Assembly (NCBI GenBank): GCA_027008705.1
Contig: JALVEB010000074.1
Location: 1-37,007, forward strand
DNA from: Sedimenticola sp.
Lineage (GTDB): Bacteria > Pseudomonadota > Gammaproteobacteria > Chromatiales > Chromatiaceae
Direction: 5' to 3'
DNA: 37,007 nt
Part shown: in pieces, positions 25,838 to 33,748 of the stretch
Position numbering within the stretch: the first letter of the stretch is position 1
Layout: each line of letters begins with the position of its first letter
Made by a program: the position numbers and the translations under genes
Notes under the pieces: model-generated
Databases searched by the model: none
Told to the model about the DNA's origin: nothing
What the model saw: the letters and a program-made list of their open reading frames with translations, nothing else

Positions 25838-26524
25838 TCAGGAGCAGTTCTTACCGCTGGTCGAGGCATCGACCTTGTGATCGAAGGCCGCCTTGCGAGC
25901 CGCTTCCATCTTCTTCTCCATCTCGGCGCGACGCGCTTCCATGTCGGCCATGGCCTTTGCCTGGCGGGCCTGCATCTCTTTCAGCATCTCGTCCCGCTTG
26001 GCCTGCATCTTGGCCAGCTCAGCGGAGAAATCCGGCGCCTTGAATTCCGGCATGGCCGGCGGCTGCGGCATCGCCGGCGCGGTGAATTGCGGCATCGCCG
26101 GCGCGGTGACCTGTGGCATCGCGGGAGCCGCCGGACGCGCGGCCATCATCTGCGCGGCCATCTTGCGCTGGGCTTCGATGGCATCCTGATAAGCCTTGGC
26201 CTGGGCTTCCATTGCGGCCTTCTGCTCTTCGCTCAGCGCCGGAGCGGCAACCGGAGCGACCGCCGCTGGATAGGGGGCATAGCCGTACGGAGCATAACCA
26301 TTGTAGCCAGAGCCGTAGTAGTTGCCGTTTCCGGCGCCGTAACCATGGCCGCGACCATGGCCACTGAAGCTCATGCTGAACGAGCCATCGACCGCGCCGT
26401 CGCCATAACCATTGCCGCTGCCCCAGCCGTTTCCGTTGCCGTATCCATTGTCGCCCCACCAGGCGCTGGCGGCGGTTGCGCTGGTCAGCGCCACTACTGC
26501 TACTGCAATTGCAATCTTTTTCAT
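25838..26524 (-). CDS. Sulfur globule protein with C-terminal helical extension
   Basis: A 228-residue exported protein. Residues 1-21 are a signal peptide (MKKIAIAVAVVALTS, cleavage after ASA). The mature start WWGDNGYGNGNGWG and the motif VDGSFSMSFSGHGRGHGYG (46-63), then YNGYAPYGYAPYP, match sulfur globule envelope proteins (Sgp) of Chromatiaceae. Unlike small Sgp proteins it continues with a Met/Ala/Gln segment (95-132), three repeats of TAPAMPQ type (134-160), and a charged Met/Lys/Glu/Arg-rich helix, probably a coiled coil (166-214). A. vinosum SgpD is also a coiled-coil globule protein, so this could combine both types. A 24-bp repeat in the gene at 26064-26111 encodes the TAPAMPQ units. 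Two cysteine-free domains precede the single Cys227. Confidence 0.85.
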   Translation of the reverse strand: MKKIAIAVAVVALTSATAASAWWGDNGYGNGNGWGSGNGYGDGAVDGSFSMSFSGHGRGHGYGAGNGNYYGSGYNGYAPYGYAPYPAAVAPVAAPALSEEQKAAMEAQAKAYQDAIEAQRKMAAQMMAARPAAPAMPQVTAPAMPQFTAPAMPQPPAMPEFKAPDFSAELAKMQAKRDEMLKEMQARQAKAMADMEARRAEMEKKMEAARKAAFDHKVDASTSGKNCS

Positions 26525-26729: not shown

Positions 26730-27140
26730 TTACTTCGCGGCGGCAGCCTGAGCGCAGGGGGAACCAGCCGGAGCGGTCGGAGCGGCCTGTACGGCGGGAG
26801 CCGGCATGGCCATGCCCGGAGCGACGGGGGCTACCGGAGCAACGGGAGCGACCGGCGGGTAACCGTAGCCATACGGAGCACCGTACGGAGCGTAGCCGTT
26901 GTAGCCATTCCAGCCGTTGTAGCCGTAACCGCTGCCGTAAGCGTCGCCACGGCCATGGCCGCTGAAGCTCATGTTGAAGGAGCCGTCCATGTCACCGGCG
27001 CCGTTGCCCCAGCCCGAGCCGTTGCCCCAGCCGTTGTTGTTGCCGTAACCGCCGTCGTTCCACGGACCCCACCAGGCGTTGGCGGAAGCGGAAACACCGA
27101 GGATGGCTGCGATAGCTGCGATTTTGACGATCTTGTTCAT
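26730..27140 (-). CDS. Sulfur globule protein (small, Sgp CV1/CV2-like)
   Basis: A 136-residue exported structural protein. Residues 1-22 are a signal peptide with cleavage after ANA. The mature part starts WWGPWNDGGYGNNNGWG, followed by MDGSFNMSFSGHGRGDAYG (51-69), a Tyr/Asn/Gly tract to residue 92, and a Pro/Val/Ala tail with three PVA repeats and Cys129. This composition is that of the proteins which coat periplasmic sulfur globules in Allochromatium vinosum and relatives. The ATG at 27140 has GGAGAAG upstream; the longer open frame runs into the promoter. It carries its own TATAAT box and a 5' hairpin, consistent with heavy expression. The next sgp gene lies downstream on the same strand. 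Confidence 0.92.
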   Translation of the reverse strand: MNKIVKIAAIAAILGVSASANAWWGPWNDGGYGNNNGWGNGSGWGNGAGDMDGSFNMSFSGHGRGDAYGSGYGYNGWNGYNGYAPYGAPYGYGYPPVAPVAPVAPVAPGMAMPAPAVQAAPTAPAGSPCAQAAAAK

Positions 27141-27292: not shown

Positions 27293-28021
27293 CTATTCCG
27301 GAAAGTCATCTTCGAGCGGCGGGTTGCCGTCATAGACCTCGTAGCGGCGTTTTTGCAGGTAGGCGTCGCGCACGAATTCGTAACGATCCAGTGCCGCCTG
27401 GTCGAGCACCCGGCTGGCGCCGAGCAGGTCGGCGCGAAGGTCGATCAGTTCCACGCCACGCAAGCCCCAGCTGACACTGGCCGGTTCTACATAGGTGGTC
27501 GGGTTGGTCAGCCAGTCACCGATGAAGCCCACGCCATCGCGCGCGCTGCTCGGGCCGATGACAGGCAAGACCAGATACGGACCCGGAGCGATGCCCCAGG
27601 CGCCGAACGCCTGACCGAAATCCTCGTCATGTCGCGGCAGGTTCATGTTGGTGGCGACATCGAAGAAGCCCAACAAGCCGACGGTGGAATTCAAGGTCAC
27701 CCGGCCGAAATCGGAGGCGGCGTGGCGGAGTTTGAATTGCAGCAGGTTGCTGACGATCGAGGTGACATCGTCGAGATTGGTAAAGAAGTTGGTCACGCCC
27801 CGGTCGAGCAGCTCGGGCATGACTTTCTTGTAACCACGGGCCAGCGGCTTCAGAAAGGTTTGGTCGACGCTTTCGTTGAACGCGAACATGTCGCGGTTGT
27901 AGCGCTCCCAAGGGTCACGCGGATCCGCAAAGGCATCTTTCTCTTTCTGTGGCCCGATGCCGGCGCAGCCGTTCAGCAGCAAGGCAACGGCGATCACGCC
28001 CATCGTCGACTTGTCGTTCAC
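27293..28021 (-). CDS. mlaA: Outer-membrane lipid-asymmetry lipoprotein MlaA (VacJ)
   Basis: MlaA sits in the outer membrane and removes mislocalised phospholipids from the outer leaflet for return by the Mla system. I choose a GTG start at 28021, which has GGGAG upstream and gives 242 residues beginning MNDKSTMGVI, with a lipobox LLLNGC (lipidated Cys19). Diagnostic blocks are DPWERYNRDMFAFNESVD, FFTNLDDVTSIVSNLLQ, NSTVGLLGFFDVA, HDEDFGQAFGAWG and GPYLVLPVIGPSSARDGVG. The frame is open upstream to 28270 but without lipobox logic. No mlaBCDEF genes are nearby, which is common for mlaA. Confidence 0.95.
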   Translation of the reverse strand: MNDKSTMGVIAVALLLNGCAGIGPQKEKDAFADPRDPWERYNRDMFAFNESVDQTFLKPLARGYKKVMPELLDRGVTNFFTNLDDVTSIVSNLLQFKLRHAASDFGRVTLNSTVGLLGFFDVATNMNLPRHDEDFGQAFGAWGIAPGPYLVLPVIGPSSARDGVGFIGDWLTNPTTYVEPASVSWGLRGVELIDLRADLLGASRVLDQAALDRYEFVRDAYLQKRRYEVYDGNPPLEDDFPE

Positions 28022-28161
28022 CCGAGTTCTCCCATTACGTCCACTTCGGACCCAGACCATCTCCCGCTCCGACGGATTGCCGGCGGAACGAAGGATAACG
28101 GAAAGCCCGCGCCCGTGCATCCATGACCGGCGGGAAACGGTATTCGTTTCCGTGGAGATGG

Positions 28162-28184
28162 CCTGCCCGCGTTCATCGGGCAGG
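28162..28184. terminator. Hairpin between rhodanese gene and mlaA
   Basis: Perfect CCTGCCCG/CGGGCAGG stem with a 7-nt loop, about 37 bp after the rhodanese stop (minus strand). There is no T-run on the minus strand, so it may be a weak or Rho-aided terminator. The remaining bases to the mlaA start show no gene. Confidence 0.4.
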
Positions 28185-28220
28185 CGCGGACGGTTTTCAG
28201 AAGGATGAGACAGCGGACCC

Positions 28221-28694
28221 TCAGGCCGGCTGACGCTGATCCTCGCGCAGCTTGCTGGTGAAGAATTCATCGATCTCGTCGGGGTCGACGAGCTTGCCGT
28301 TGGCGTCGACCATCGGCTGGTCGAAGTCGTTCCAGCCGCGCAGGCCGGTCTTCAAGGATACCACCCGCGGGTAGTCGAGCACTTGCAGGGACCACGCCGA
28401 AAGCAGGCTGCGATGACCGGATCGACACACCACGACGACATCGCGATCACCGTTCTCGCGCGCCCGCACGAGCTCGGGAACGGTTTCGTCGAAGTTCCAC
28501 TCGGCGGCCGATTCGAGGATCCCGCGCGGGATGTTCAGCGAGCCGGCGATATGGCAGAAGGCGAACTCGTCCGGCTCGCGCACGTCGACGATCAGCGCGT
28601 CGGGATGCGCCTGGAGGCGCTCCTCGAGATCCCACGGCATGTCTTCCGGCACGTCTTTCAGCAGGTCGCGGATCTTCTCGATGAATCGCATCAT
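28221..28694 (-). CDS. Rhodanese-domain sulfurtransferase
   Basis: A 157-residue single-domain rhodanese. The active-site loop is CRSGHR with Cys90, after the strand DVVVV; other marks are ALIVDVREPDEFAFCHIAGSLNIP and VVSLKTGLRGW. No signal peptide is seen, so it should act in the cytoplasm, moving sulfane sulfur from persulfides or thiosulfate. It starts 6 bp after the narL-like stop and is probably cotranscribed with narX and narL. In a sulfur oxidizer it may handle persulfides, but the link to the two-component pair is only positional. Confidence 0.93.
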   Translation of the reverse strand: MMRFIEKIRDLLKDVPEDMPWDLEERLQAHPDALIVDVREPDEFAFCHIAGSLNIPRGILESAAEWNFDETVPELVRARENGDRDVVVVCRSGHRSLLSAWSLQVLDYPRVVSLKTGLRGWNDFDQPMVDANGKLVDPDEIDEFFTSKLREDQRQPA

Positions 28695-32726: not shown

Positions 32727-33665
32727 TCAGCCGTCGACGCGCACCAGTTCGACACGACGATTCATCGCCTTGCCTTCCGGCGTGTCATTCGAGGTGATCG
32801 GCTGTTCTTCGCCATAGCCTTTCGCGCGCATGTTCCCGGCCTTCACGCCCTTGGAGGCCAGGTAGGCCATCACGGCGTTCGCGCGGCGCTGCGACAGATC
32901 CTTGTTGTAGGCGGCATCCCCATCGGAGTCGGTATGGCCGGCCACTTCGACCTTGATCTCGGGGTGCGCGCTCAAGGTCCTGGCGACACGGTCAAGGATC
33001 GCGGTCGACTCGTCAGTGAGCTTGTCTGAATCGGTATGGAAGTTCACGCCACGCAGCACGATCGTCGCGCCCTGTGGGCAACCGAAGGCGTCGACCTGAC
33101 TGGCGGCCGGGGTGTCGGCGCACAGATCGAAGGGGTCGGCGACGCCATCGCCATCGCTGTCAAGCGACGGCGGCGCAACCTCGACCTTGGCGGTCGCCGC
33201 CGGCGCGGCGGCCGGCGCCACGCGCGGCGCAACCGGCGGCAACGGTGGATAGGGGTAGTATCCGCGGCGATAGCCCCAGCCGTTCCAACCATTGCCCCAG
33301 AAATCAGACATCATGTTGGTCAGGCCACGCGCCTTGAAATCGACATCGACGTTAACCTCGGTGCTGCCGTCGACCAGGCCGGTCATGGTATCCATCATGT
33401 CGCCCCAATCGTTGTTGCCCCAGTGATTGCCCCAGGGGCGCCAGCCGTTGCCCCAGGGCGCACCGCCCCACGGGCCACGGCTCCACGGCGCGCGCCAACC
33501 ACGCCAGGGGCGATAGTAGCCGCCTCGCCAGGGAGCCGGGACGGGCGCCGGCGCGGCAACACGCGGCGCGGCGCCGCTGCACCCGCTGCCGGCGGCATGG
33601 ACGAGAGGAGTGGCCATCAGCACACTGGCGATGGCGGAACCGATCAGGCTTGGTTTGATGTTCAC
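32727..33665 (-). CDS. OmpA-family cell-wall-binding protein with sulfur-globule-protein-like N-terminus
   Basis: A 312-residue exported protein. A GTG start at 33665 with GGAGAAAG upstream gives a signal peptide (1-24, cleavage after VHA). Residues 46-140 are Trp/Gly/Asn/Arg/Pro-rich (PWGNHWGNNDWGDMM, WGNGWNGWGYRRGYYPYPP) with VDGSTEVNVDVDFKARG at 98-114, which parallels the VDGSFSMSFSGHGRG motif of the sulfur globule proteins. A Pro/Ala linker leads to a thrombospondin type 3-like calcium loop (DSDGDGVADPFDLC, 169-182) and an OmpA C-terminal domain (198-310) with the peptidoglycan-binding Asp246 (GHTD) and Arg260/261 (LSQRRANAV). It should be soluble in the periplasm and cling to peptidoglycan. 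Confidence 0.9.
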   Translation of the reverse strand: MNIKPSLIGSAIASVLMATPLVHAAGSGCSGAAPRVAAPAPVPAPWRGGYYRPWRGWRAPWSRGPWGGAPWGNGWRPWGNHWGNNDWGDMMDTMTGLVDGSTEVNVDVDFKARGLTNMMSDFWGNGWNGWGYRRGYYPYPPLPPVAPRVAPAAAPAATAKVEVAPPSLDSDGDGVADPFDLCADTPAASQVDAFGCPQGATIVLRGVNFHTDSDKLTDESTAILDRVARTLSAHPEIKVEVAGHTDSDGDAAYNKDLSQRRANAVMAYLASKGVKAGNMRAKGYGEEQPITSNDTPEGKAMNRRVELVRVDG

Positions 33666-33748
33666 TGTCTTTCTCCGGGTTCGATTGTCGGGATACTTCT
33701 TGGCAGGCAAGCGCGATCGCCCTGCACTTCTTTGGTTTAATAATTACT

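Follow-up and report, generated by a model that had tools for sequence, protein, structure and literature searches.

In silico analysis of the window, a stretch of 37,007 nucleotides from Sedimenticola sp. (GenBank assembly GCA_027008705.1, contig JALVEB010000074.1), has revealed a gene for a fusion protein in which an N-terminal half resembling the sulfur globule proteins (SGPs) is followed by a C-terminal OmpA domain with conserved diaminopimelate-contact residues. The protein belongs to an orthologous group, whose members co-occur with SGP matches. With a probability of roughly 0.48, judged from sequence, it may be a soluble periplasmic linker that connects the coat of the globules with the cell wall and so helps to determine their position or the site at which they begin to grow. 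The features considered are as follows:

32727..33665, minus strand: SGP-OmpA fusion gene for 312 aa, start codon GTG at 33665, stop at 32727
33673..33676, minus strand: GGAG, likely ribosome-binding site, read from the sequence, seven bases 5' of the GTG
33594..33665, minus strand: predicted Sec-type signal peptide, residues 1-24, by the A-x-A rule, without lipobox
33579..33581, minus strand: Cys29, close to the predicted mature N-terminus
33375..33548, minus strand: Pro/Trp/Gly/Asn-rich stretch, residues 40-97, read from the sequence
33189..33434, minus strand: PF17228 SGP domain match, residues 78-159, 29.6 bits domain-scored, 17.1 bits whole-protein
33243..33374, minus strand: SGP-like core, residues 98-141, from VDGSTEVNVDVDFKARG to YYPYPP, by sequence with shuffle and reversal controls
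33078..33161, minus strand: one TSP3-type calcium loop, containing Cys182 and Cys196, residues 169-196
32757..33041, minus strand: OmpA C-terminal domain, residues 209-303, PF00691
32928..32930, minus strand: Asp246, putative equivalent of A. baumannii OmpA Asp271, by alignment with PA0833 (available part of PMC5974059)
32883..32885, minus strand: Arg261, putative equivalent of A. baumannii OmpA Arg286, by the same alignment and source
about 26730..27140, minus strand: free-standing sgp gene, PF17228, 64.5 bits, start placed by eye
about 25838..26524, minus strand: free-standing sgp gene whose product has a long charged extension at the C-terminus, PF17228, 56.9 bits, start placed by eye

The open reading frame, described in the earlier note without its strand as coding for an exported protein with a Trp/Gly/Asn-rich half, a calcium-type loop and an OmpA domain, has been confirmed on the minus strand, and Asp246, Arg260 and Arg261 stand in the 312-aa translation at the positions given there. 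The segment VDGSTEVNVDVDFKARG comprises residues 98-114 and WGNGWNGWGYRRGYYPYPP residues 123-141. Cleavage of the signal peptide has been placed by the A-x-A rule; on inspection by eye, 24 of the 25 orthologues have a signal-like start and the remaining row is incomplete there, and this N-terminus suggests that the fusion protein is exported. A cysteine at residues 28-37 occurs in 19 of the 24 complete fusion orthologues and is absent from the g63 row and all four of g77; some free SGPs of the window's genome have a cysteine near the C-terminus. Terminator-like sites have been found upstream of the gene (33818-33806) and downstream of it (32615-32597, two overlapping), three against 1.4 expected by chance, which speaks weakly for a single-gene unit. 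No sigma-70-like promoter has been found.

It is unlikely, though the reading carries some weight, that the product is an ordinary OmpA-type envelope protein serving envelope integrity, with a low-complexity Trp/Gly/Asn/Pro arm that is SGP-like by composition or old ancestry. Such a reading is favoured by the whole-protein search, in which the window copy matches PF17228 at residues 78-159 (E=0.0098, 17.1 bits) below the cut-off of 26.7 bits; a whole-protein scan gives PF17228 at E<=0.01 in 7 of 25 orthologues. Domain-scored in a six-frame search of its own genome, however, the window arm reaches 29.6 bits and exceeds the curated cut-off, as do the fusions of five more genomes (G002 33.7, G077 30.7, G148 30.1, G209 38.7 and G215 29.5 bits), so that with the window's genome, G000, six genomes of four genera count against an envelope protein alone. 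The search that yielded the five further genomes took in 17 genomes, 14 of them carriers, and all five over-cut-off matches in frames of at least 300 aa were OmpA fusions. Below the cut-off fell the fusions of G128 (21.8 bits), G198 (11.9) and G195 (11.7), and a partial second copy in G127 (10.8), located at a contig end (contig 295, 2-964); at E<=10 no PF17228 match was obtained in the fusions of G003, G012, G066, G111 and G188, nor in the intact G127 copy.

The arm has also been scored with an SGP profile of 29 distinct free-SGP cores from 35 loci (L058, L062 and L068 left out owing to a wrongly chosen frame). The default bias correction of HMMER was erratic with these SGP profiles, and shuffles and reversals were scored without it. 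Residues 26-168 of the window protein then score 36.6 bits, a value equalled by none of 500 full and by one of 500 local (12-residue) shuffles, and 21.9 bits when reversed. With a profile lacking the SGPs of the protein's own genome, two of 500 local shuffles match the window score, and the forward and reversed values are 26.3 and 24.1 bits, a margin of about 2 bits; with bias correction on, this profile gives 2.9 bits forward and 6.6 reversed. The arm of the window copy exceeds its composition, though some controls barely separate the two.

Across the group, reversal of the N-terminal half costs at least 10 bits in 14 of 25 orthologues: 14.7 in the window copy, 34 in G002, 21.5 in G012, 10.9 in G077, 13-23 in four g8 rows, 22-37 in four g77 rows and at least 10 in two of the three g2 rows. 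This direction-specific signal, up to 37 bits in g77, argues against likeness by composition. Reversal leaves the scores undiminished in six g21 rows and in G066, and in the three g30 rows the forward minus reversed difference ranges from -4 to +2.6 bits, two of them scoring lower with the main profile than when reversed. Among 28 other OmpA proteins, from the family and the class, whose N-terminal parts gave a score, the highest value with that profile is 4.1 bits.

A stricter comparison is provided by an unrelated Trp/Gly/Tyr-rich exported ORF of the same genome, which is located on a different contig and lacks the core. Without bias correction it scores 34.7 bits against 33.7 for the window frame, and this failure of raw scores to separate the two sides with an ordinary envelope protein. 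On the other hand, the ORF is not among the six PF17228 candidates of its genome at E<=10 and scores about the same in either direction (36.5 bits forward, 38.1 reversed), so the window arm is the better SGP match by Pfam and by reversal, but not by raw score. The sulfur-globule-like/OmpA hybrid suggested in the earlier note is accordingly supported for the group, where the SGP kinship of the arm appears well supported by the cut-off and reversal results; for the window copy alone it appears less so, its margins being small in some controls.

The envelope-protein explanation gains further from the predicted structure and from core loss. An AlphaFold2 model built from four sequences has a mean pLDDT of 49, with a moderately confident OmpA domain (blocks of 62-87) and values under 50 for residues 1-162, and the N-terminal half is thus predicted to be disordered. 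By eye, the SGP core is present in 17 of the 27 orthologues identified (g1, g8, g11, g30, g63 and g77), the three g2 orthologues are divergent, and the core is absent from seven, namely that of G066, with a row incomplete at its start, and six proteins of genus g21. The seven coreless proteins keep the OmpA half and the P-x-W-V repeats, and their genomes have SGP matches. The repeats, of the form P-x-W-V-x-x-R-R and in part near-identical tandem units, lie ahead of the SGP/OmpA part in several genera (L086-L092, L093-L096, L103-L105) and persist where the core is lost. They have been considered as an SGP trait and rejected; outside the fusions, L159 and L160 matched in the 17 genomes searched: L159, in G012, is a 191-aa frame with the repeats and a Tyr/Pro-rich tail, and L160 is a match in a G077 frame of ambiguous make-up.

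The orthologues have been identified by searching 210 genomes of the family with five query rows and again with 25 rows. Scoring covered the best eight and then the best seven candidates per genome, and the best four in the samples of the class and the phylum, a depth at which divergent fusions could escape notice. They occur in 27 of the 210 genomes and in 9 of 61 genera; 26 genomes match beyond the OmpA domain at E<=1.6e-92, and the 27th, G157 (1.3e-65), ends at a contig edge inside the SGP core. Complete fusion rows span 309-648 aa. PF17228 matches are present in at least 193 of the 210 family genomes, and over the cut-off in at least 188. All 26 carriers besides G157 have a PF17228 match at E<=0.01, a count that can include the fusion itself, and dsrA exceeds its cut-off in 23 of these 26; the three carriers without dsrA over the cut-off (G003, G066 and G209) are genomes 80-89% complete.

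In a class sample of 369 genomes, an alignment search found other TSP3-OmpA proteins in 84 genomes at E<=1e-45, some matches reaching the linker columns, and none of the class TSP3-OmpA loci fetched and scored from this sample has an SGP arm. PF17228 exceeds its cut-off in at least 55 of the 369 genomes, four of those listed belonging to the window's family; in frames of at least 300 aa, the matches listed comprise only the fusion of the window's genome and a free sgp gene with a long open frame. The phylum sample of 398 genomes yielded three others at E<=1e-62, in the OmpA part only, and neither this sample nor that of the class has shown a second SGP-OmpA fusion. In the class genome G404, which also has PF17228 matches of its own, the tree places one protein among the orthologues; its N-terminus is repeat-like and has no core. 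The genome survey called for earlier thus places the fusion, in the samples searched, within the family so rich in SGP matches; homologues are not common, as sampled, in bacteria without sulfur storage, a distribution that speaks against an ordinary envelope protein. The coreless orthologues, together with 183 family genomes that yielded no orthologue, suggest that sulfur can be stored without this protein.

A tree of 88 OmpA domains (148 columns) joins 25 fusion rows and G404 in one group with an SH-aLRT of 92, under the starred threshold of 95 of the tool, and its inner forks are unsure owing to the few columns. Fusion labels are far more clustered on this tree than shuffled ones, no shuffle of 500 being as low. 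These results suggest a single origin of the fusion OmpA domains; in the simplest history, the SGP core would afterwards have been lost, or have decayed, in G066 and g21. Co-divergence between the core of the fusion and the SGPs of its own genus has been rejected as general evidence, since it is clear only in g77, where own-genus free SGPs rank 1 of 20 in all four rows; elsewhere they rank 4-7 (g8), 16 (g11) and 7-15 (g2), and the g1 ranks of 4 and 1 of 20 are unreliable, the reference set having included one non-SGP ORF and two duplicated SGPs that displaced two others.

The two sulfur globule proteins noticed earlier in the window, with VDGSFSMSFSGHGRG and MDGSFNMSFSGHGRG, have been verified at about 25838-26524 and 26730-27140. 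Their closeness to the fusion gene has no counterpart in the sister genome or in the other genera examined, and because the surroundings of the fusion differ between genera it is probably incidental. No operon of the fusion with sgp genes occurs in the neighbourhoods examined, and sgp linkage has been discarded as functional evidence, as no sgp-linked arrangement recurs in 13 fusion neighbourhoods compared by blastp clusters. In G002, grouped with the window's genome in one genus, the sgp genes are on contigs other than that of the fusion. A 2-thiouracil desulfurase (PF04463) gene upstream of the fusion and DUF937- and PEBP-like genes downstream are common to G002 and the window, the G002 neighbours being identified by likeness to window proteins. 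The only neighbour clusters common to different genera are broad ones, namely ParA/MinD-type ATPases (g8, g77), two-domain signalling-type proteins (g8, g21) and a g11-g1 cluster.

Several further observations concern these loci. Directly downstream of the G002 fusion lies a gene for a second OmpA-domain protein of about 577 aa (contig 138, 3339-3770, L147), which is absent from the window. Four of the 13 neighbourhoods compared, three of g77 and one of g8, have a ParA/MinD-type ATPase gene at most a few kb away from the fusion (L139 5055-5759; L141 10130-10987; L146 4063-4872; L152 11532-12302); the g8 and g77 ATPases are about 25% identical, and the proximity may be due to chance, such genes being common. 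Beside the sgp gene at 26730-27140 lies a minus-strand gene (27293-28270) for MlaA, of outer-membrane lipid transport (PF04333, E=1.1e-77). An MlaA gene or fragment within about 1.5 kb of sgp was found at 14 of 90 SGP loci, a count including the window's own pair (two) and two short fragments, against none of 109 control loci; this linkage recurs, e.g. at L197, L193, L072, L079, L196, L195, L205, L206, L192 and L204. In G000, a coreless Trp/Gly/Tyr-rich exported protein (WWGDDWDGPWDGGPYWGGPYWGG...) is encoded on the plus strand at L017 (contig 122), with a free sgp gene no more than about 1.5 kb away.

The C-terminal half matches PF00691 at residues 209-303 (E=3.5e-25, 88.6 bits against a curated cut-off of 27.2), and the OmpA domain is found at E<=0.01 in 25 of 25 orthologues. 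Asp246, Arg260 and Arg261 are invariant in all 25 aligned fusion orthologues, as are D169, D171, D173, D180, C182 and C196 of the calcium loop in all 25 rows, while the Pfam TSP_3 match stays below its own cut-off. The best solved structural relative is the OmpA-family protein 5wtl (E=5.8e-23), which also has a TSP3-like loop ahead of the OmpA domain. Asp246 and Arg261 align with the PA0833 residues matching A. baumannii OmpA Asp271 and Arg286; according to the available part of PMC5974059, the latter two contact diaminopimelate and PA0833 retains both. A C-terminal domain with both contact residues is a feature in common with PA0833, OprF and Omp38, and the domain presumably binds peptidoglycan. 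In contrast to these proteins, the fusion has an SGP-like N-terminal half and not a barrel, a lipid anchor or a TSP3 array. No NCBIfam model reaches its cut-off for the window protein among the best 25 of 40 matched; the best is NF053612, the PA1041 lipoprotein family (residues 169-307, E=6e-38, 131 bits against a cut-off of 250), from which the fusion differs also by the lack of a lipobox. By the lipobox motif as generally recognised, no lipobox is present, as Cys29 follows G-S-G, and the contexts of the N-terminal cysteines in the orthologues (e.g. GEGC, VEKC, QQDC, GSEC, ANEC, NPEC) also misfit; the fusion protein is therefore probably soluble.

The N-terminal half, with its putative export signal, resembles SgpA-D of Allochromatium vinosum and PF17228 in its Gly/Tyr/Trp/Asn-rich composition. 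Most fusions, like the free SGPs, have an acidic-Gly stretch followed by alternating hydrophobic residues and then by Gly-Arg/His-Gly. The available text of PMC10386293 describes A. vinosum globules as periplasmic, within a coat of Sgp proteins, with tagged SgpD on the globules; SgpD resembles the fusion in its regularly spaced prolines. The same text gives SgpA-C as 11-13 kDa, whereas the complete fusions are longer proteins ending in OmpA, and the free SGPs examined here, unlike the fusion, have no wall-binding domain.

The proposed linker would act as follows. The signal peptide would send the protein out of the cytoplasm, the OmpA domain would hold peptidoglycan through Asp246 and Arg261, and the disordered SGP-like half would join the periplasmic globule coat by self-association, as in the Sgp coat; a globule coat tied in this way to the wall could have its position, or the place where its growth begins, set in part by the fusion. 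Both incorporation into the coat and tethering are suggested by the architecture. The closest alternative to tethering is seeding at the wall, from which it is indistinguishable by sequence: as a wall-bound nucleator, the SGP half would seed the coat or capture polysulfide, so that globules start at the wall, and the link need not last. This explanation, which is quite improbable, shares the architecture of the tether, and the cysteine near the mature N-terminus, in the 19 rows that have it, could by its presumed chemistry react with sulfur chains; the lack of this cysteine in the g77 and g63 rows speaks against it, and nothing in the sequence favours seeding over tethering. That the protein holds sulfur at the outer membrane or beyond the cell, for access to external sulfur as the earlier note had also envisaged, has very little probability. 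Many OmpA-family proteins are located at that membrane, but nothing in support was found here: neither a beta-barrel family nor a lipobox, and hence no membrane anchor, is seen, and the peptidoglycan-contact residues indicate the periplasm.

To our knowledge, what positions periplasmic sulfur globules in the cell is not explained. The placement of globules is random in many species and polar in Thiovulum, as stated in the available part of PMC10386293, and that of PMC6413534 lists an OmpA MotB protein (AUB79657.1) among the differentially expressed proteins of Thiodictyon. No description of an SGP-OmpA fusion has been found in the open-licence literature on sulfur globules, OmpA, peptidoglycan and cell-wall anchors, and the available parts of PMC6908572, PMC6524685, PMC12285230, PMC7787665, PMC12481199 and PMC10892978 describe no such fusion.

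The periplasmic linker tying coat to wall remains the preferred reading. It is conceivable, if somewhat doubtful, that in several genera an SGP-OmpA linker ties the globule to peptidoglycan, and that the globule, rather than being a free inclusion, forms an organised periplasmic compartment linked to the wall. The presence of a coat-like segment and a wall-binding domain in one protein offers a single gene for probing globule placement. If the reading is true, the sulfur globule would be a storage inclusion with a tether to peptidoglycan, which is unusual as far as is generally known.
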